Source: a virus | Length of the DNA: 22,549 nucleotides | IMG/VR virus record: IMGVR_UViG_3300008448_000719 | Location: 1-22,549 of that record | Strand: one strand, 5' to 3' | Notes under the pieces: model-generated | What the model saw: the letters and a program-made list of their open reading frames with translations, nothing else | What the model was told of the DNA's origin: nothing | Database searches by the model: none | Program-made: the position numbers and the translations under genes | Shown: positions 3,257-15,634 of the stretch, piece after piece | Position numbering within the stretch: the stretch's first letter is position 1 | Layout of the letters: each line of letters opens with the position of its first letter

Positions 3257-5773
3257 TTATGTTCCTTGTATACTATGTGTTCTTGTTTCTTGGCGAATCT
3301 CATATTCGCGAATTTCTCTTGCAATAGTTGCGTTTCTACTTTCAGCAGGTATGCGATAAACGTATACATCAAGTCTAACTTCTCTACCAACTGCTAGAAC
3401 TGCACTTACAGCAGGCAAGTTGGCAGTTGCTGAGACACGTTTACCAGCATTGATGTTTAACTGAGCAGCACTGCTGATTGCACTTGATCCAGGTCTGATT
3501 CTACCAAGGGCAGCAACAACACTGGCAGTAGCAGCCATTGAACTATTGGCTCTAGCAGTAACTTTACCAGCCGCAGCAAGTGTAGCAGTTGAACTGGCTG
3601 CAACCACAGCCCTTTTAATCACGTCAGCATCTATTGTTAAGTTGACAGTGGATTCAAAGGTTCCTTCAGCAACAACACCAACAACAGCATCTATGCTTAT
3701 TTGAGATTCCGCAGCAACATCTGATGAGACAACGACTGTTTTAACAGCGGTAATTGACGCTGATGCAGCACTATCTATTGCAACTACTGATCCAGTTAGA
3801 ACATTACCAGAAACTGTTAAATTAGCAGCAACCGCAGCATCAATTAAGAAATCACCAATTTTAGCAGCCGCAGTTAATTGAGCAGCAACACTTTCAAATG
3901 CAGACGAGTTATCTCTGGTTCTACTGTTATCTATAGCAATAGTGAATTCGCTAGCGGCTGAACCTGCTGCCTCAACTGCCTTAATTGCTACAGAATTCTG
4001 TGTAAATTCCGCAGCAAGATCAGCAGCACCCGGTTTATTAGTTGCACCTGTTGCATTGCTGGTGAATGCTACGACAAGATCAGCAACAAAGGAGATAGTT
4101 CCTTGGTTTTCAGTAACCATTGTGAACTGATCAGCAATGTCGGCACCGGCCTCTACAGATTTAACTGCATCAGTGCTTTGAGCAAATTCACTGGCAATTG
4201 ATGACGAATATTCTTTGAATAAGTCTGGGGTAATAGCAAAGTTGGCAGTGACCGCAGCATCAATTAAGAAATCACCTATTTTAGCAACCGCAGTTAACTG
4301 ACTTGCAACACTCTCAAATTCAGCAGCGGCAGGTTGTATTTTTCCAACTATAGTTGATAAAGTTGATTCAGCAACAATGTCAGCAAAACCACTTTGAATT
4401 GTTGTAGCAGCAACAGTTTGTGCAAAACTAGAACTTAGATTTGCTGTAAATTGTTGAATACCAACATCGTCATCTCTAAGATTGTTTTCATAATGTAAAA
4501 GGAGTTTTGTATTGGTATCATTAACAAATGAAGTTGTTGGAACAGTTATAGTAGTTTTACTAAAATCATAACCGTAGGTAACTAAAGCATCTACACCACT
4601 AACAATTCTTGTATCATCTAAAAGAAAACTATCTGAATTGCCGTCTGTGGTTGGTGTCCATTGTCCAATGGTTAATCTTAAAGGATCGTTGGTTGTAAAA
4701 ATTTGGAAATTTTCTGATAATGAAGATCTTTGAGTTCCGTTAACATAGATCTTCATACCAGAACCGGGTTTCCATGTAACCAACAAGTGTTGCCATGAGT
4801 TATCTGTTAAGGTATATGTTGATGGAGTTGCAAGTTTGTTAACACCATTTGCATCATCAGCAAATAAGAATAAATCGTTAGAGTTTGCTTCAGAAAGCGT
4901 TATAACTTGAGAATTTGCATCAGTATTACCTACAGTGTCTATTCTAAAAATATCAAAGTTTTGTGTAGAAGCAAGTGGATAAATCCAAGTTTCAAAAAAC
5001 CAATCTTCGCTGTTGTTTGGAGCAATTGTATTTTCATGATAGACTATTTTAAGATCACTCAATCCATCGAGATTTACAGCATAATTTCCAAATTTTTCAA
5101 AAGTATTAAAAGTTACATCGCTATAATAAGGAACAAGTGGACGTTGGCCAGATATTGATTCCTGTCCTCTTAATCGATATTCGATGCCTTCAGCAGCGAC
5201 GGTTGCAGTAGCAGACAATGCTGCTGATGCTGAAATATATGTTATTGATTCGGCGTCACAAGAAAGTGCAGCAACAGATTCTAAACTGGCTGCACTTTCA
5301 AATGTAACATTGGTTCCAATATCGCCAATCGCATTGTTATTTCCAACAGTGAATTCTGCAGAGATAGCAGAACTGTTGTCACGGAAACGATCAGCAGCGT
5401 TATTTAGGTTAGCAAAGAATTCCAGCAATCCACCCGGATCAACTGTTTTAACAGCAGTGGATTCAAGATCGAATGCAACATCAAGAGCAGCAGTGTGGTT
5501 CTTGAATACTTCCACAGTTAAGGTTGGCGTAAATGCAGCAGCGAATTCAGCAGCCGCTTGGATTATCTTTGTAGCAGTGATTGCAACAGTAGCAGCGGCA
5601 CTGAGAGCAGCAGCAACTTCAACTACAACACCACCTGGTATTTCTGTAGCGTCACATACTACAGTAAATGCTGAACTAGGTGCCGACTCTGCTTCGGCGA
5701 CATAAACGAAATAGTCTTCCGGATCAAAGTATCCAAGTTCTACAAATAAACCGTCTGTGGTTGCTCTTGTCAT
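3257..5773 (-). CDS. Large alanine-rich tail fibre with a LamG-like domain, 838 aa
   Basis: Residues about 215-400 form a LamG/concanavalin-like domain: GNYAVNLDG, WFFETWIYPL, WQHLLVTWKPGSGMKIYVNG and a closing LDDTRIVSG are typical of its strands. Both flanks are Ala/Val/Thr-rich repeats of low complexity (AAEF, SAAT, FESVA blocks). One is duplicated nearly exactly: QLTA-x-AKIGDFLIDAAV near residues 490 and 630. The C-terminus changes to a polar stretch with RNATIAREIREYEIRQ and TRTHSIQGT. The likely role is a tail fibre or spike, with the LamG domain binding carbohydrate on the host. The start is set by TAAGGA seven bases before the ATG, overlapping the previous stop. Confidence 0.75.
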   Translation of the reverse strand: MTRATTDGLFVELGYFDPEDYFVYVAEAESAPSSAFTVVCDATEIPGGVVVEVAAALSAAATVAITATKIIQAAAEFAAAFTPTLTVEVFKNHTAALDVAFDLESTAVKTVDPGGLLEFFANLNNAADRFRDNSSAISAEFTVGNNNAIGDIGTNVTFESAASLESVAALSCDAESITYISASAALSATATVAAEGIEYRLRGQESISGQRPLVPYYSDVTFNTFEKFGNYAVNLDGLSDLKIVYHENTIAPNNSEDWFFETWIYPLASTQNFDIFRIDTVGNTDANSQVITLSEANSNDLFLFADDANGVNKLATPSTYTLTDNSWQHLLVTWKPGSGMKIYVNGTQRSSLSENFQIFTTNDPLRLTIGQWTPTTDGNSDSFLLDDTRIVSGVDALVTYGYDFSKTTITVPTTSFVNDTNTKLLLHYENNLRDDDVGIQQFTANLSSSFAQTVAATTIQSGFADIVAESTLSTIVGKIQPAAAEFESVASQLTAVAKIGDFLIDAAVTANFAITPDLFKEYSSSIASEFAQSTDAVKSVEAGADIADQFTMVTENQGTISFVADLVVAFTSNATGATNKPGAADLAAEFTQNSVAIKAVEAAGSAASEFTIAIDNSRTRDNSSAFESVAAQLTAAAKIGDFLIDAAVAANLTVSGNVLTGSVVAIDSAASASITAVKTVVVSSDVAAESQISIDAVVGVVAEGTFESTVNLTIDADVIKRAVVAASSTATLAAAGKVTARANSSMAATASVVAALGRIRPGSSAISSAAQLNINAGKRVSATANLPAVSAVLAVGREVRLDVYVYRIPAESRNATIAREIREYEIRQETRTHSIQGT
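3831..3900 (-). repeat. Direct repeat copy 2 in the alanine-rich fibre gene
   Basis: This 70-base segment matches 4251-4320 with few differences. The first 26 plus-strand bases (ACCGCAGCATCAATTAAGAA then ATCACC) are identical. The offset is exactly 420 bases, or 140 codons, so the frame is kept. Confidence 0.85.
4251..4320 (-). repeat. Direct repeat copy 1 in the alanine-rich fibre gene
   Basis: Partner of the segment at 3831-3900. The flanking protein segments (AAEFTQNSVAIKAVEA and ASEFAQSTDAVKSVEA) are also alike, suggesting duplication of a whole module of about 140 residues rather than of this stretch only. Confidence 0.85.
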
Positions 5774-8424: not shown

Positions 8425-8817
8425 TTAGGCTAGGCTAATAGTTAGGTTGCCACTTGAAACTTGGAAAGTATCGCCGCTTTCAATTGTTTTGCTGGTTGTA
8501 ACAGCACCCCAGAACAGAACGTTGCCTGAAGTAGAAGCATCCATCACTGCTACGTGAGTGATTGTGCCCCAGTTAGCAGTTGCAGCGTCAAAGGTTACAG
8601 TTGCGTTGGTTGCACTTGCACCGCTTGAAGCAGCAGCAAAAGTCACTGCCTTACGGCCATATGAACCGCCTGATATTTCAGCACTTGGGCTGTTTGATTC
8701 AAGACCAGTTGACGCAGTAAACAGTGCCAAATAACGAGTGCTTGGCTGGCTGTATGCTGTTGCTGTTAGAACGTGGTCCAATAGTTTGTTTTCTAGATAA
8801 TCGCTTGCTGCGGACAT
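8425..8817 (-). CDS. Virion structural protein (tail-fibre-associated family), 130 aa
   Basis: The product starts MSAASDYLENKLLDHVL, continues with RYLALFTAS and EISGGSYGRKAVTFAAAS, and ends with SGDTFQVSSGNLTISL. This pattern is widespread in phages as a small tail or fibre-associated protein of about 130 residues, which fits the length here. The start at 8817 is set by AGGAG seven bases upstream; an in-frame TTG at 8859 lies inside the leader hairpin and lacks a ribosome site. It is the first gene after the late-type promoter at 8884-8896, and may head a unit of fibre genes. High expression would fit a structural protein. Confidence 0.8.
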   Translation of the reverse strand: MSAASDYLENKLLDHVLTATAYSQPSTRYLALFTASTGLESNSPSAEISGGSYGRKAVTFAAASSGASATNATVTFDAATANWGTITHVAVMDASTSGNVLFWGAVTTSKTIESGDTFQVSSGNLTISLA

Positions 8818-8833
8818 TTTGTTTCTCCTGTAA

Positions 8834-8861
8834 AGTTGTCTATTTGTTAAAACAGACAACT
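8834..8861 (-). promoter_or_regulatory. 12-bp hairpin with UAAC loop just before the ribosome site
   Basis: On the minus strand AGTTGTCTGTTT (8861-8850) pairs with AAATAGACAACT (8845-8834), twelve pairs with one G-U, around loop TAAC. It lies about four bases before AGGAG (8829-8825). UAAC belongs to the UMAC tetraloops, known to fold like GNRA loops. There is no T-run, so it is not a terminator. A 5' leader stabiliser or RNA-protein site is likely. Confidence 0.65.
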
Positions 8862-9130: not shown

Positions 9131-10408
9131 TTATTCAAATATAACCACTGATAAGATAGCACCATCTGCATTGCCATCGCCATCAGCATCAACGTTTAGA
9201 CTTGCAATAGCATAACCAGTAGGAGTAATAAGATTACCACCTTCTTGATCAAGGTCATATGTAGGCACTGCTGAAACAGTCAGTCTATAAAGTCCAATTG
9301 GAGTATTGCTGATGTTTAAAACAGTTGTGTAGGTTTGCCAGTCCAAGAAACGAGTTTGCAGTGGTGTCCAACTGCTTCCGCCATTGCTGCTATATTCAAA
9401 AACTATTTGGCAAGGAATACCTGCATTGATGCTTCTGCTAACAGTGGATCCATTAATAACTGTATCATAATTAAAAATACCAGTTGGTCCTTCAAATGTT
9501 ACCTGCATTAATTTACTTGGATTACCAGTTATACCAAATTGTGTTCCAAATGAACTTCCTGGGCCACTGGTGAATACACCTTGAATTACCGACGGAGTCC
9601 AGCCAGTTGTTGCAGTTTGTAGAATTGGAATACCTGCGTCAGCAATAATGGTTTTGCCTTCTTCAGTTTCGATAGCAGCACTGACATTTTCAGCAGTGTT
9701 CACAGCATTTACTTCAGCAACACCAGTGCTTTGATAATAGGATGTAAATCCATTTTCTCTTGTTCTAATAAATCTATTGAGGTCGGAATAATCATAAACA
9801 TCAGCATCGTATTCCAAGCAGGTGTAACTCAATAGAATGTTGCCTTGGTCGTCATCGTCTTCTGATATTGAAATGATTCTAAATGGCTTAGCATCCCAAT
9901 CAAATATACTGTTGGTAACTGAAACAATATCACCAGCACTTAGACCATAACTGGAAAAGTCTGTTTGAAATTCAATTGCTTTGCTAACACGACTTTGTTT
10001 TAATTCAGTTAGGGCAATCTGTTCTGCTTGAACAGGATTGCTGATCAAGTCTGTGTCAATGGTCAACACATTTTGAGGTTCCCAAAAATTTCTATTCTCT
10101 GGTGGTATCTCAATGCGAATTGTATCTCTTTGGTCATTGAGATCTCGGTGGGGGAAAGATATTTCTACAACATTGTAGAGTTCTTGAAATCCTGTTTCTG
10201 TTAAACTGATTGATCCAACGATGTTATCATCATTGAAGTCAAATACAGGATCACCGGGTCCGTTGATAACAATTTCATATCTACCAGTCTGAACATTGAA
10301 TGTTACGAAAGCACTGGCACTTGCAGCAATTTCTTCTATGTTTTGCCAAACTGTTTTTGAGGTATCTACTACCCCGTTGATTCTAAACTGTGGTTGTGAT
10401 GATGACAT
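9131..10408 (-). CDS. C-terminal half of a tail-tip hub protein (lambda J-like), 425 aa
   Basis: The start, QFRINGVVDTSKTVWQNIEE, followed by FNVQTGRYEIVING, LYNVVEISFPHRD, LTIDTDLISNPVQAEQIALT and FSSYGLSAGDIVSVTN, is the familiar middle-to-C-terminal part of phage J-like central tail proteins (Phage-tail_3 type). These form the hub that closes the tail tube and carries receptor-binding parts. The N-terminal half is encoded separately at 14409-13603, with a 3.2-kb adhesin gene between. The C-terminal 200 residues look like fibronectin-like or sheet domains (TFEGPTGIFNY, TPIGLYRLTVSA). AAGGA is nine bases before the ATG. The two halves presumably reassemble in the virion; that is inference. 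Confidence 0.75.
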   Translation of the reverse strand: MSSSQPQFRINGVVDTSKTVWQNIEEIAASASAFVTFNVQTGRYEIVINGPGDPVFDFNDDNIVGSISLTETGFQELYNVVEISFPHRDLNDQRDTIRIEIPPENRNFWEPQNVLTIDTDLISNPVQAEQIALTELKQSRVSKAIEFQTDFSSYGLSAGDIVSVTNSIFDWDAKPFRIISISEDDDDQGNILLSYTCLEYDADVYDYSDLNRFIRTRENGFTSYYQSTGVAEVNAVNTAENVSAAIETEEGKTIIADAGIPILQTATTGWTPSVIQGVFTSGPGSSFGTQFGITGNPSKLMQVTFEGPTGIFNYDTVINGSTVSRSINAGIPCQIVFEYSSNGGSSWTPLQTRFLDWQTYTTVLNISNTPIGLYRLTVSAVPTYDLDQEGGNLITPTGYAIASLNVDADGDGNADGAILSVVIFE

Positions 10409-10420
10409 CTATTTCAATCC

Positions 10421-13400
10421 TTATTTTGGTGTAACAGTTATAAAAATGCCGCCGGGTTGCGGTTCATAATTTGGTCCAGCAGCACTGAATCCTTTACCTC
10501 CACGACCAGCGTTGCTCGAAATGCTGGAGCCTTCTGGGCCACCACCTGCACCACCGCGACCTAAGTTTCCTCCAGCCACAGTAAAGGTAGCAGCACCGCC
10601 ATCACCGCCACGCCATGTTCCACTTAACAAATAAGGTTCTCCACCGGTGCCGCTGTCACCACCACCACCGCCTCCAACATTGTTATTTGGATTAACTGAT
10701 CCATAATCGTCTCCGAGATTTCCACTGCCGCTGGTTCCTCCAACACCATAACCAACGTCTTGAACAGGTGCTGTTGCACCACCGCCGCCTGCAACAGTAA
10801 TACCATCAAATGTAGTTGAACCTCCTGCAGTTCCATTTCGATTTGCGTATATGTTATATCCATTTACTCCGGCGGCTCCAACAGTGCCAGTATAGGTTTT
10901 ATTAATCAGCGTCTGATCGGCTAGATGTTCAACTTTGCCACCACCGCCACCATGACCTGACTGAGTTTCTCCAAGGAATGTATCCACTGGAGTCCACGAT
11001 GGTTCACCAGCAATTATATTTGCATGAATGAATATTGTATTCACATCCACTGGATCAGCAAATGTGTATTCACTGGTAGGAGCAGTAAAACCGCTGGAAT
11101 TTAAATATGGATCAATGCTTATTCTAAATTCATCCATGTAACCTTTATAAAAATTAGTTCCGTTGACATTTGCACCAATTGACAATGATGCTGCAATACT
11201 AGTGATGCTGACATTGATATCTGTAGCACTTATTATTTCATCAACTCGTGTTCCATTTATGAATAAGATTGCTCTACGATTACTGATAGTGTTGTCTTCT
11301 TGATGTTGATAAGCAATATGAGTCCATGTTCCTGCAGTAATAGCAGATGATGCTAAATTATAGGTTCCACCTGTATTTCCTGTGGCTGTAACTTTAATTA
11401 ATGCCCCATCTTGGAAAATTTTAATACTGCTACTGTTGGAAGTTGATTTAAATTCAACTAAAGTCTTGTTTCCAACAACATCGTCAGGTCTAATCCAAAA
11501 ATCAAATGACTTGTCATTCACCAATCCTAAATTAAGATCGGGTGTTTGGCTTGAAAGTTGATCATTGGTTCCATCAAAATAAATGCTGGCATTGCCAAAT
11601 TTCTTTTCAGTGGTTGATAAACCTACTCCGCCATTTAATGTAAATGTTATTGGATTGGTAATATATGATCCTCGGCGATAACTACCGCCACCACCACCAC
11701 CAACAATAGCATAATTTAGTTTTCCATATTCTAAATCAGAAGGTGTTGGTGTCCAACTAAATGCACCTGGACTCTGCAATGAAACTGTCGATCCTGAATA
11801 AGTTCCGGCACCGGTGCGTGTAATTGCAAACGATCCACTCTGTCCTGCTACTCCATCCTTGGTTGAAGTAAATGAAACAGTGATATTGCCTGTGTGGTTA
11901 TACGGTGGATAATAATCAATATCTGTCATTAGATCTTCAAGAGTGCTGTAGGTTCCTGAAAATGTTAAAGGATTATCGTATTCACTGGTATTCTTATTAT
12001 AAAATTTACCTTGGCTAGCAGTTAATGTTATTGACAAGTTTGTGTAATCAGGATCATTTGGAGTAAAAGCAAACTGTCTAGTGTTGGATGCTTTTGAATC
12101 TCCAAAGATGCTGTTGGTGGTATTGCTGAGATAAATTCTTCCTAACCAAGTAGGAATTGGCGGAGCACTGTCTTCTGGCCAACTTTCTACATACAAGAAG
12201 TCTGGAACATAATTGATGCTATGAGAAACGTTGTAGTAATAACCATTTACACCGAAAGTAGCAATGTATTGAATAGTAAAATCACTGGATCTTGTGGTTT
12301 TACTTTTTACTGCTAATGTATCAAGGTGACTGTTGATTTGTGCCACACTACCAACAATTTCCATTATACGATAACCATTGCCTGATGTAGGGCTTGAAAC
12401 TGTAACAGTTCCGCTACTGCCCTGGGTTGTGATGGTTTGAATTGCTTGATCAGGATCATATATAACAACAGTGAAATTTCCATCAATAGAGTTGTTAACA
12501 GTTAGACTTGGAGCACTAACAAAGAACTCTTTGTTAACATAGAATTCATCATCAGCACCTGGAGCACTTAATAACACTGCATCAAGAACTGCATCTGTGA
12601 TAACAACACTGGCAACAACACCAGGTGCCGCAGACTGATTTCTAATTCTACTGTTAATTGTAGTCATAGTGGCATTAGCAGAAATAGCAGCCGCAGCAAG
12701 TTTCAACTTCATACCATCTGCACTCACTGTTGCAGTTGATGCCACAAATGCTATCAATTGATTGTTAACTATTTGTTGGACTTGTATATCAACTGTGTCA
12801 TTTAAACTGTTTGACAAGTTAAACACAAAAGTAAAGTCTGGGTTGAATTCACTGAAGGTTACACTGATGTTTGACAGGTGACTGTTGACCTGTGTTTTGT
12901 TACCAGTGATGGTAATAACCTTTGTGGTTGCATTAAAAGCAAATGACCCACCTATGCCAGTGGAAGTGGCAGTGGTTATAGGAGCAGTTGAACTTGGAGT
13001 AATAGTTAGTGTCCAAACTGGATTGAATGTGCTGGTATCAGCATCAATTGCCACAGTGGAAATTGTTTGTGTGGATCTTGGAGTATAAACAAATGGTGCT
13101 GGAGCAGACAGATATTCAATAGCATTAACAGTGGTGTTCACTGACCAGGCAACCGATTGTTCATCTTCAAACTGGTCAAAATATTCAATGGTTGCAGTGT
13201 AAACAAAAGTTCCACTGTATCTAAATGGCAATTGAATAGTTGCTGAAACAGCAGTTATCCAATCAGCAACACTGTGCAGAGGACCGATTCTAAAAGCACT
13301 ATATGAATCAAGTTCAACGAACATATGCTCAGGAAAATCTGTATCATCAATGCTTATAGTGTCGATGGTTGTTGAATCATCCGATTCAATGTCAGTGAAA

Positions 13401-13606
13401 TCCAATGTAAGATAAACTTCAGCGGCTGCATAATCAATGATGTCAGTTATTTCAATGCCACGTGGCAAGGTATGTGTTTGGTTTTCATTGATCAACAATG
13501 TTTGGTTTGTTGGTGTGGCTCTATCAAATAGAACTCCTACAGGTCTTTCATCGGTGTATTCAACCTCTTGATCACTGTATCCATTTAATTCTTCTAAACT
13601 TTTCAT
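10421..13606 (-). CDS. Large adhesin with Ig-like, glycine-rich and LamG domains, 1061 aa
   Basis: The first 22 residues (SLEELNGYSDQEVEYTD) look like the missing linker of the J-like hub. Residues about 40-620 are sheet domains of Ig/cadherin type. A glycine-rich adhesin domain begins at LNYAIVGGGGGGSY (about 632), is interrupted by a LamG domain at about 655-845 (FGNASIYFDG, FDFWIRPDD, WTHIAYQHQ, YMDEFRIS), and resumes at GHGGGGGKVEHL (about 885) to the end. Glycine-rich domains of this kind sit at phage adhesin tips and LamG domains bind sugars, so host recognition is likely. The ATG overlaps the previous stop as ATGA and has no good Shine-Dalgarno sequence, so it is probably translated by coupling. 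Confidence 0.75.
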   Translation of the reverse strand: MKSLEELNGYSDQEVEYTDERPVGVLFDRATPTNQTLLINENQTHTLPRGIEITDIIDYAAAEVYLTLDFTDIESDDSTTIDTISIDDTDFPEHMFVELDSYSAFRIGPLHSVADWITAVSATIQLPFRYSGTFVYTATIEYFDQFEDEQSVAWSVNTTVNAIEYLSAPAPFVYTPRSTQTISTVAIDADTSTFNPVWTLTITPSSTAPITTATSTGIGGSFAFNATTKVITITGNKTQVNSHLSNISVTFSEFNPDFTFVFNLSNSLNDTVDIQVQQIVNNQLIAFVASTATVSADGMKLKLAAAAISANATMTTINSRIRNQSAAPGVVASVVITDAVLDAVLLSAPGADDEFYVNKEFFVSAPSLTVNNSIDGNFTVVIYDPDQAIQTITTQGSSGTVTVSSPTSGNGYRIMEIVGSVAQINSHLDTLAVKSKTTRSSDFTIQYIATFGVNGYYYNVSHSINYVPDFLYVESWPEDSAPPIPTWLGRIYLSNTTNSIFGDSKASNTRQFAFTPNDPDYTNLSITLTASQGKFYNKNTSEYDNPLTFSGTYSTLEDLMTDIDYYPPYNHTGNITVSFTSTKDGVAGQSGSFAITRTGAGTYSGSTVSLQSPGAFSWTPTPSDLEYGKLNYAIVGGGGGGSYRRGSYITNPITFTLNGGVGLSTTEKKFGNASIYFDGTNDQLSSQTPDLNLGLVNDKSFDFWIRPDDVVGNKTLVEFKSTSNSSSIKIFQDGALIKVTATGNTGGTYNLASSAITAGTWTHIAYQHQEDNTISNRRAILFINGTRVDEIISATDINVSITSIAASLSIGANVNGTNFYKGYMDEFRISIDPYLNSSGFTAPTSEYTFADPVDVNTIFIHANIIAGEPSWTPVDTFLGETQSGHGGGGGKVEHLADQTLINKTYTGTVGAAGVNGYNIYANRNGTAGGSTTFDGITVAGGGGATAPVQDVGYGVGGTSGSGNLGDDYGSVNPNNNVGGGGGGDSGTGGEPYLLSGTWRGGDGGAATFTVAGGNLGRGGAGGGPEGSSISSNAGRGGKGFSAAGPNYEPQPGGIFITVTPK

Positions 13607-14409
13607 TGTATGTAAATGTCCCCTTGTGGAATAGCAGCACCATATATGGTATTTGTCATGTAGTCATAAAGAACATCACCGGGTTTGCTCAAAGTGTTTT
13701 CTAATTCAAACACAAAGTTAGGAATGCCACTTAATCCGATATTGGGATTGTAAGCAATTTGACAGAAAGCAAATACCAAGCCTGCCATAAAATGATTGTC
13801 AGTCCATCCAGGAAAGTTTACTCTTGCATCAGCAATTGTAGCATTGGTATAACCTGAGGGCACTGTAAATTTACTGCTATTGCCATTGTAGCAGAATACT
13901 GCAACCTTGTTGGCCAGTCTAGTATCTACTGCACCATTGGTGTCTGTGGTGCTGGCAACAAAGATACCAGCAGTGGGTCCTGAAGTAGCAAAGTTTAATT
14001 TAAATCCATCCATGTAGATATTTTTAAAACTTATTACACTGGGGGTTCCGTTGATTAGGTTTCCTGTTTGTTCACAAAGCACAAAGCAAACTGACAATAC
14101 AGTATTGTTTTCAGTTAATGCAACATCAATGATCTTTCCACTGAGATATGCTCGGCCATACACAACTGGTATTTTGGTTTCCGTATCAGGATCCAACTGC
14201 AATCTAACACCCGGATCCACTTTAGGTTGTTCTGGTGCTGAACTGCCTCCGGCGTTGTTGTTGTCACGTTGTATGCTCTTGGTTAATTTATTTAAGGCAT
14301 AACCAGCCACAACAGTTTGCAATAAAGTTTTGCCAAGACTGTTGCCACCGCCGGTTTTGGATTTAAACAATCCTCCAAGGAAATCAAATACGCCGCTTAA
14401 GAAACTCAT
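13603..14409 (-). CDS. N-terminal half of a tail-tip hub protein (lambda J-like), 268 aa
   Basis: A glycine-rich hydrophobic N-terminus (FLSGVFDFLGGLF) precedes the segment IPVVYGRAYLSGKIIDVAL, followed by SVCFVLCEQTGNLING, the hallmark of the N-terminal part of J-like proteins. The end (GDVLYDYMTNTIYGAAIPQG) matches the 'P-x-D-V-L-x-D-Y-x-T-N' region, after which typical family members continue directly into the part encoded here at 10408-9131. At 268 residues it is only part of a normal hub. The stop codon overlaps the next ATG (ATGA). The start overlaps the preceding gene's stop as ATGA too. Confidence 0.75.
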   Translation of the reverse strand: MSFLSGVFDFLGGLFKSKTGGGNSLGKTLLQTVVAGYALNKLTKSIQRDNNNAGGSSAPEQPKVDPGVRLQLDPDTETKIPVVYGRAYLSGKIIDVALTENNTVLSVCFVLCEQTGNLINGTPSVISFKNIYMDGFKLNFATSGPTAGIFVASTTDTNGAVDTRLANKVAVFCYNGNSSKFTVPSGYTNATIADARVNFPGWTDNHFMAGLVFAFCQIAYNPNIGLSGIPNFVFELENTLSKPGDVLYDYMTNTIYGAAIPQGDIYIQ

Positions 14410-15014
14410 TTAGGGGCTCCAAACACAAAGTTACTCTGTTGTAGAGTTGGTATACGATCAAAGGAAACATCTTGATTGTTGGTTAAAAACTTTTGATCAA
14501 TTGGGTTGGTTCTGCGTCCATTGACAAATCGATTGCGAACAGTGACCAAACTACTGCACTCTAGGTTGATGGTAAATGTTCCTTCAAGATCAAGGTTGTT
14601 GAGTTCTTCATTGATGTTGTAGGTATCTACTCTACCAAAGAATCTTCCAACAACGTTGGTGCCGTCAATTAAGTCTGGATCACCATCTAATGGATTATAC
14701 AGTCCTCTGTATACTCGAACAAAACTGCCTTTGATATCACTGTTGATGATTTCTCTAACACGATCATCTGGAATACCTGAGATAGTAACAGTAACACTGT
14801 CACCGGATCCACGGATCTCACTGCGGCTGGTTGTAATGCCTACAAAGTTACCCAAGGGCAAATAATCATAACCATCGTATTCAATAATTCTATAATCATC
14901 ACTGAATGTTAATTCTACAGGCTCTGGTGTGTCTTCTAGATTCACTCGATAGTTTGCAACTGATATTCTACAAAGTAAACTGGTTTGAATTGAATTTTCA
15001 CTTATATCGACCAA
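14406..15014 (-). CDS. Minor tail protein (DUF2163-like), 202 aa, TTG start
   Basis: The segments VELTFSDDYRIIEYDGYDY, LGNFVGITTSRSEIRGSGD and VTISGIPDD are typical of tail-tip assembly proteins that precede J-like hubs in lambda-like and GTA-like clusters (DUF2163 or lambda L-like position). The C-terminal part (LECSSLVTVRNRFVNGRRT, then DQKF) fits that family too. It probably helps join the distal tail to the hub. The start is a TTG at 15014-15012, because AGGAGG (15027-15022) lies exactly seven bases upstream inside the preceding gene; a farther TTG at 15050 has no ribosome site. It overlaps the previous gene by 13 bases in another frame. Confidence 0.7.
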   Translation of the reverse strand: MVDISENSIQTSLLCRISVANYRVNLEDTPEPVELTFSDDYRIIEYDGYDYLPLGNFVGITTSRSEIRGSGDSVTVTISGIPDDRVREIINSDIKGSFVRVYRGLYNPLDGDPDLIDGTNVVGRFFGRVDTYNINEELNNLDLEGTFTINLECSSLVTVRNRFVNGRRTNPIDQKFLTNNQDVSFDRIPTLQQSNFVFGAPK

Positions 15015-15634
15015 GTTACTGCCTCCTGGAATACAAAGTCTCCACTCCAACCAATTTGATCTCTAGCAATGAAACTCCACTGTGGAAATTCAATCATTTG
15101 AAGACTAAAGATACAGTTTTCACCAATTCTAGCAGTTACCACACCTGAAGTAGGATCCAATATTGGTCTATGTAGTGTGATGGTGTTTTGATTGTATGCT
15201 ACATCTTCAGTGATAACGTAAACTGGGCCTGGATAGGTAAGTTGTATTAGATCACCTTTTCTAAATCTGTATCCTGAGGCCAAAGTTGGAGCACTGGCAA
15301 TTGTAACAGTATTTGTTCGTGGTGATGGAATTGTTACTGTTACTGTTCCACTGATATTGGCAAAATCACCTTGGTAAGCAAACATCCAATCGTATCCACT
15401 ATTGTTAAACTGTATATCTTCGGCGACAAATCTGTCACTCTTTTCTATTGCAGTTATATATGGACGATAGTCAGTCCAACGTGGTCCATCTGGTAATCTA
15501 ACTGTGAAACGCCATAGACTGTTTCCACGGCTTACAGTTCTAACAAGGCCGCTTCTTGTTAAGGTTGATGCAACCACTGGGCGACGACTCACTCCCATGG
15601 TTTCTGCGTTGTCAATTACGAATTGAAATGACAT
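15002..15634 (-). CDS. Minor/distal tail protein, 210 aa
   Basis: The gene follows the tape measure, the place of distal tail or lambda M-like proteins. The product begins MSFQFVIDNAETMGVSRRPV and contains LWRFTVRLPDGPRWTDYRPY, a pattern I associate with distal minor tail proteins. Its central part (TVTIPSPRTNTVTIASA, GYRFRKGDLIQL) has the 'kGD-x-I-Q' turn seen in such proteins. It would form a ring at the tail end. The ATG overlaps the tape-measure stop as TAATG, so translation is coupled, and its own 3' end carries the AGGAGG for the next gene. Confidence 0.75.
   Translation of the reverse strand: MSFQFVIDNAETMGVSRRPVVASTLTRSGLVRTVSRGNSLWRFTVRLPDGPRWTDYRPYITAIEKSDRFVAEDIQFNNSGYDWMFAYQGDFANISGTVTVTIPSPRTNTVTIASAPTLASGYRFRKGDLIQLTYPGPVYVITEDVAYNQNTITLHRPILDPTSGVVTARIGENCIFSLQMIEFPQWSFIARDQIGWSGDFVFQEAVTWSI

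Follow-up and report, generated by a model that had tools for sequence, protein, structure and literature searches.

Phage tail hubs, which close the tip of the tail, consist of one or two chains in most descriptions. In the window that we analysed, a 22.5-kb IMG/VR fragment (22,549 nucleotides in full), two genes resembling the halves of one lambda J-like hub gene lie on either side of a gene for a large adhesin. The original prediction, made from the sequence alone, was that the adhesin may have inserted into the hub gene and captured the linker between its halves. This arrangement raises two questions: (i) whether the flanking proteins, here called hubN and hubC, are parts of a single hub whose linker is now carried by the adhesin; and (ii) whether the layout is peculiar to the window or is kept among its relatives, and how it may have come about. 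The gene arrangement, its conservation, and the homology of the hub halves and of the linker are shown below.

Results

Layout of the tail module

The minus strand of the window carries a siphophage-like tail module in the order tape measure, distal tail protein, 214-aa tail protein, the hubN/adhesin/hubC trio, and more fibre-like genes (Table 1). The three ORFs are as originally described, and so is the overlap between the first two of them: the TGA of hubN shares ATGA with the ATG of the adhesin, in the -1 frame. The adhesin stop is a TAA, followed by an AAGGA motif, and hubC opens with its own ATG. The 425-aa protein had been said to start at QFRINGVVDTS, which held only in part, as hubC begins six residues before QFRINGV. 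A separately assembled contig, L005, carries a hubN that is 100% alike, an adhesin that is 99.7% alike over 920 residues, and the same first junction. The first junction is therefore unlikely to be an assembly error. The L005 contig stops short of the second junction, between the adhesin and hubC. The 214-aa protein upstream of hubN had no match to solved structures by sequence; it could be a separate, gpL-like hub domain I, a suggestion for which its position is the sole basis.

Table 1. Positions of the features discussed, numbered from the first letter of the window
Feature	Position	Strand	Evidence
hubN (268 aa), N-terminal hub half, lambda-J/T5-pb3 type	13603..14409	-	ORF; profile alignments
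Adhesin with linker at its N-terminus, 1061 aa	10421..13606	-	ORF
hubC, C-terminal hub half, 425 aa	9131..10408	-	PF13550; phrog_31; T5-type hub; P19250A J
ATGA shared by the hubN stop and the adhesin start (-1 frame)	13603..13606	-	Sequence
AAGGA Shine-Dalgarno-like site and gap ahead of hubC	10409..10422	-	Sequence
Captured hub linker, adhesin residues 3-20 (SLEELNGYSDQEVEYTDE)	13547..13600	-	Linker HMM; window score; predicted helix
Upstream tail protein, 214 aa	14406..15050	-	phrog_2048 tail protein, E 2.6e-18
Distal tail protein	15002..15634	-	phrog_1302, E 4e-8
Two predicted cadherin/Ig-like beads of the adhesin stalk, residues ~24-161 and 172-281	12764..13537	-	AlphaFold2, Foldseek
Laminin_G_3 lectin-like domain, residues 679-829	11120..11572	-	PF13385, E 1.9e-15, above cut-off
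Possible glycine-rich tip-like domain, residues 881-1050	10457..10966	-	PF21722, E 0.0018, below cut-off

hubN and hubC are two halves of one hub

We compared both proteins with J of P19250A, an uninterrupted hub. By hhalign, the hubN profile aligned to residues 45-246 (E 8e-30) and hubC to residues 272-496 (E 1e-24), so that the two halves are collinear on this protein with ~25 residues between them. hubC also matched residues 523-720 of the T5-type hub pb3 (E 1e-15), phrog_31, annotated as "central tail fiber J" (E 5e-23), and PF13550 (Phage-tail_3; E 1.2e-7; 32.2 bits against a cut-off of 23). Searches of Pfam and PHROGs with hubN gave no match, and hubN alone matched T5 pb3 261-479 only weakly (HMMER, E 0.024); a profile that combines uninterrupted with split relatives covers pb3 262-719 with an E of 2e-21. 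As a test of the fold, made on an uninterrupted relative of 508 aa (L128) and not on the split chains themselves, we obtained an AlphaFold2 model with a pLDDT of 85. The model matched T5 pb3 (E 6e-23, TM 0.63), with the hubs of lambda (gpJ), GTA, JBD30, and Chi ranking lower among its structural matches.

hubN and hubC are thus two halves of one lambda-J/T5-pb3-type hub, as had been proposed, by homology and by order; that they assemble into a complex is inferred. The proposal would have been refuted had the halves belonged to different families, and both matched the same two proteins, pb3 and P19250A J. Hub domains II to IV are not on one chain in the window, being spread over hubN, the linker borne by the adhesin, and hubC.

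The adhesin begins with the missing hub linker

In uninterrupted hubs, about 24-30 residues lie between the two halves, for example TSLTALNTYSNQTITYTLYSGGTS in P19250A and TADFTALNTYSAQGVAYDDQGTGAETLADR in L128. The adhesin of the window starts with MKSLEELNGYSDQEVEYTDE, and the residues that separate the hub halves in P19250A reappear as the adhesin start, SLEELNGYSDQEVEYTD. Scored against uninterrupted linkers, the N-terminus was the top window of the whole protein (31.0, with the runner-up at 13.9), and none of 20,000 shuffles equalled it. We also built a linker HMM from 51 sequences, all taken from uninterrupted or two-gene hubs, with no adhesins included. It matched residues 3-20 of the window adhesin with an E of 2e-4; at 17 bits, this match is short and modest taken alone. 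Across 77 adhesins, the same HMM gave a match in 59, and in 56 this match was N-terminal. The remaining 18 gave no match to the HMM, yet in the alignment nearly all adhesins show an LN...D.R pattern. The linker is the best-conserved stretch of the adhesin (L7 99%, N8 97%, R21 95%, L4 91%, and D19 90%). hubN and hubC of three-gene phages are without it, and uninterrupted and two-gene hubs have it.

In the L128 model, the linker region forms a helix (255-265) and then the strands of a beta-hairpin (269-273 and 277-281), with the insertion point in the turn ahead of strand 277-281. A helix is predicted by AlphaFold2 at adhesin residues 4-11; it corresponds to helix 255-265 of L128, and the linker strand to 269-273. 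We read the L128 model as predicting that the linker adjoins or lies within hub domain II.

The first ~20 residues of the adhesin are homologous to the missing hub linker. This part of the original prediction, which would have failed had the adhesin N-terminus not aligned to J-like linkers, held by both the window score and the HMM and is refined to residues 3-20. We also considered homology beyond residue 20, to a "DR" motif (VLFDR versus TLADR), and rejected it: for the window adhesin the HMM match ends at residue 20, and the best match extends to the end of the model in none of the adhesins.

The three-gene layout is conserved among uncultured relatives

Relatives were gathered by scans with hub and capsid queries, and all fetched loci were classified by HMM. 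Counting hubs as distinct when they differ by >3% over a stretch of hubN gave 135. Of these, 83 have three genes (hubN, linker-adhesin, and hubC), 39 are uninterrupted, and 12 are two-gene forms (hubN and linker-hubC) with the same split point and no adhesin. In the last, L211, a single reading frame encodes hubN and the adhesin as a fusion. Two irregular loci, L173 and L180, are among those counted as three-gene. A look for an uninterrupted hub in close relatives had been proposed as a check, and uninterrupted hubs do occur among relatives. The view of the window as a one-off insertion failed, as the arrangement is conserved in at least 83 distinct hubs (the window and 82 other uncultured lineages).

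hubN is conserved in every three-gene relative, and the gene boundaries are also conserved. Of 78 three-gene loci, 76 have the hubN stop overlapping the adhesin start by 4, 1, or 8 nt, in differing forms (ATGA, TAATG, or 8 nt). An SD-like motif lies ahead of hubC in all 75 testable three-gene relatives, with a median gap of 9 nt, and the hub halves of three-gene loci are 1.3-4.1 kb apart. The two-gene relatives have the first break alone, without an adhesin; in L131 and L089 the second gene starts with MKTLAQLN.YS...YTD...LANRYQING right at the ATGA overlap. Among cultured phages, we found no split form in 50,697 phage records. A search for the host through prophages returned no more than a distant SAR92 match and an orphan hubC, the latter on a contig from a Thiovulum MAG.

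The adhesin has a conserved base and a variable end

The AlphaFold2 model of adhesin residues 1-290 (mean pLDDT 92) shows the N-terminal helix followed by two beta-sandwich beads. In Foldseek, the two-bead model matched cadherin/Ig-like tandem domains, with a low TM over both domains. The N-terminal ~165 aa are homologous across three-gene relatives and the C-terminus varies: PF21722 is found (E<=0.01) in 28 of 60 adhesins of the three-gene type, FG-GAP ends in 14 of 60, and lectin-type (PF13385) C-termini also occur. No case of the adhesin N-domain outside a hub locus was found among the fetched loci; two apparent cases (L126 and L054) proved to be truncated contigs. From domain type and variability alone we infer that the adhesin binds a host receptor.

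Adhesins are exchanged just after the linker in one clade

For pairs of phages with like hubs, mean identity was 0.71 for hubN, 0.73 for hubC, and 0.64 for the linker; within the adhesin it was 0.51 for residues 23-165, 0.36 for the middle, and 0.23 for the last 250 residues. The adhesins thus have the conserved attachment end and variable binding end of receptor-binding proteins. In four near-identical phages (L161, L158, L170, and L188), DNA identity is ~0.9 throughout hubN and as far as adhesin nt 60, mostly 0.4-0.7 beyond it, and about 0.8-1.0 from the start of hubC. The edge of the exchange, at codon 20, is where linker homology was independently found to end with protein profiles. In this clade of four, the adhesin was swapped after the linker and the hub was retained; that this holds generally is not shown. 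Over 24 disjoint pairs, the first 60 nt were better conserved than the next 60 nt in 17 (Wilcoxon p 0.005). Identity also declines generally along the adhesin gene, and this explains part of the pairwise linker trend.

The order of events is inferred only

The hub gene has two separate breaks, one before the linker (the stop/start overlap) and one after it (the adhesin). Since 12 relatives have the first break only, insertion of the adhesin need not have split the hub gene. In a hub-core tree built without linker or adhesin, the two-gene forms group with close uninterrupted forms. One clade for the three-gene hubs was not rejected (p-AU 0.52; 92 rows, without L288), nor was a clade of three-gene hubs, the fused form, and L288 in a larger set (p-AU 0.625; 132 rows), and the likelihood of the constrained one-clade tree was equal to or above that of the free tree. 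The tree is compatible with the adhesin having been inserted once and later lost once, in L288, and this history remains possible. The hub tree favours neither split-then-insert nor insert-then-lose. The proposal that the adhesin inserted into the hub gene and captured its linker therefore held in part: linker capture is supported, and insertion as the cause of the split is not settled.

Discussion

A hub of separate chains with a swappable adhesin

The reading that we consider likely (a probability of roughly 0.78) is a trimeric hub of separate chains, in which the adhesin is anchored by a captured hub helix and strand and the receptor-binding parts can be swapped. hubN and hubC would each supply half of the hub fold, and the missing linker (the helix and the first strand of the beta-hairpin) would come from the adhesin N-terminus. 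During assembly of the tip, the linker carried by the adhesin would take up its former position between hubN and hubC. The first 20 residues would thereby dock the adhesin laterally on the hub. Three adhesins would project from there, with cadherin-like beads carrying the lectin or glycine-rich receptor-binding end outward. The overlapping stop and start codons would couple translation of the adhesin to that of hubN; with this coupling, and with hubC having its own ribosome-binding site, we infer that the three chains are made together. As the linker stays with the hub while the remaining adhesin is exchanged, the locus may be seen as a socket for adhesin swapping.

The assembled complex, the docking of the linker, translational coupling, and receptor binding are inferred; they lack support from any observed virion, protein, or complex, and our models are of single chains. 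The three-chain assembly, foreshadowed by the original prediction as a two-chain hub with an adhesin in between, thus remains an inference.

A bolder reading, for and against which we see similar weight, is that, in a widespread group of uncultured phages, the hub is permanently multi-chain and one of its loops is a socket. Each adhesin would plug in by a hub helix and strand of its own, an element that is also the marker for the site of adhesin exchange, perhaps with a direct action on the gate. When T5 and lambda bind their receptors, the tube is opened by a rotation of hub domains II and III (PMC10038345, PMC11101478). With its anchor near domain II, an adhesin could conceivably help to drive tail opening; this is speculation.

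Alternative explanations

The strongest rival holds that the linker is kept only for the sake of DNA or translation (as homology for exchange, or as part of a coupled start), that the hub folds without it, and that the adhesin docks elsewhere on the tail. In its favor, linker DNA is conserved like the hub, exchange begins just after the linker, and the overlapping start and stop are conserved. Against it, the L..LN, YTD, R protein pattern is retained across deeply diverged lineages and fits the helix-strand of uninterrupted hubs, and in two-gene relatives, which have no adhesin, hubC bears these same residues. DNA homology alone would not require residue conservation, and we therefore regard this rival as unlikely.

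A second possibility is that the adhesin is an unrelated gene lying between hub genes and that its N-terminal likeness to the linker is coincidental. The linker is short and its profile match modest. However, the N-terminus is the top-scoring window, with no shuffle as high; a profile built without adhesin linkers finds its match at the N-terminus of most adhesins; and the linker is missing from hubN and hubC of the very phages whose adhesins carry it, while being present in uninterrupted and two-gene hubs. We consider coincidence very unlikely.

There is equally little room for a sequencing error, frameshift, or read-through that hides a single hub chain or a hubN-adhesin fusion. The first junction is merely a -1 frame change, and L211 does have hubN and adhesin in one frame. 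However, L005, assembled separately, is identical at this junction, the 83 hubs share the layout with varying overlaps and with SD motifs at start sites, and the hub halves lie kilobases apart; so far as sequence evidence goes, we rejected assembly error or frameshift on the strength of L005 and the 83 hubs.

Finally, an intein or self-splicing intron that carries the adhesin and rejoins the hub halves would fit one precise insertion site in a conserved gene, as is often seen with such elements, but it is all but excluded: we rejected it on the absence of any intein or endonuclease domain in Pfam and of intron RNA in Rfam, and hubC has its own start with an SD motif, the adhesin has a stop, and two-gene relatives lack any insert.

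Comparison with known hubs

Lambda gpL/gpJ and RcGTA gp13/gp15 (PMC10721106) belong to the same hub family and also have the four hub domains on more than one chain, with domain I separate. Their break lies between domain I and the domain II insertion, whereas the window has an extra break after hubN and its linker has moved to a third, adhesin-bearing chain. T5 pb3 (PMC10038345), the closest solved fold and a sequence match for both window halves, is a single chain with all hub domains, and in T5 a separate central fibre bears the receptor-binding protein at its end. The closest cultured relative is P19250A, a Methylophilaceae phage (KX815270); its host specificity protein J, to which both hub halves and the linker align, is unlike the window in being one uninterrupted gene of 1099 aa. 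In "evolved" Dit/Tal hubs (PMC7291167), adhesive domains likewise occupy a loop, either in the tail hub or in the distal tail protein. There, however, carbohydrate-binding modules are in-frame within one chain, whereas in the window one chain stops with the adhesin and the rest of the hub follows as a separate chain. An in-frame insertion of the evolved Tal type is not what we find: the ORFs, starts, and stops are separate, and L211 is the sole hubN-adhesin fusion. We found no description, in the open-access literature searched, of a break within the fold with transfer of the linker to an adhesin. The family is that of J/pb3 hubs; the architecture is a variant that is new so far as these searches go.

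Implications

A hub cut inside its fold has been retained across at least 83 phage lineages. As uninterrupted, two-gene, three-gene, and fused forms all occur naturally, one can directly test how a split essential protein and a receptor-binding socket have evolved. Annotation pipelines will tend to miss such hubs and to label the key adhesin "hypothetical". The arrangement points to a natural route by which phages of environmental bacteria may swap their host-binding parts.

Variant layouts of the split hub

In the two-gene hubs (L088, L089, L131, L227-L230, L236, L239, L244, L251 and L288), the N- and C-terminal halves (hubN and hubC) have no adhesin between them, and the break is a start/stop overlap immediately ahead of the linker. 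This form could be a stepping stone or a scar. Locus L211 shows a joining of the opposite kind, with the hubN side fused and hubC apart in its own ORF.

Two three-gene loci have an irregular layout. In L173, the ORF following hubN encodes just 141 aa, and ~3 kb then separates it from hubC; in L180, an additional ~1.2 kb separates the adhesin from the match to hubC, and the start chosen for that match lies internally.

The orphan hubC of L223 has bacterial-looking neighbours and may reflect a chimeric contig or cargo. The tape measure gene (1-2531) of L005, a separately assembled contig, is in two reading frames around position 1686 relative to the window, possibly through an assembly indel.

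Other fibre-like genes

For the gene that matches PF23140, relatives also occur in L006 and L022. The 838-aa repetitive protein is probably a second fibre or adhesin.

Coordinates of hub variants and fibre-like genes
Location	Strand	Feature
L211:3939-5258		hubN, linker and short adhesin in a single ORF, 439 aa
L223:3669-4688		Orphan hubC ORF, no hubN; Thiovulum MAG contig
Window 3257-5773	(-)	Repetitive protein, 838 aa, with a further Laminin_G_3 domain
Window 8425-8859	(-)	Gene closely matching PF23140 (podophage GP4 fibre I gp80)
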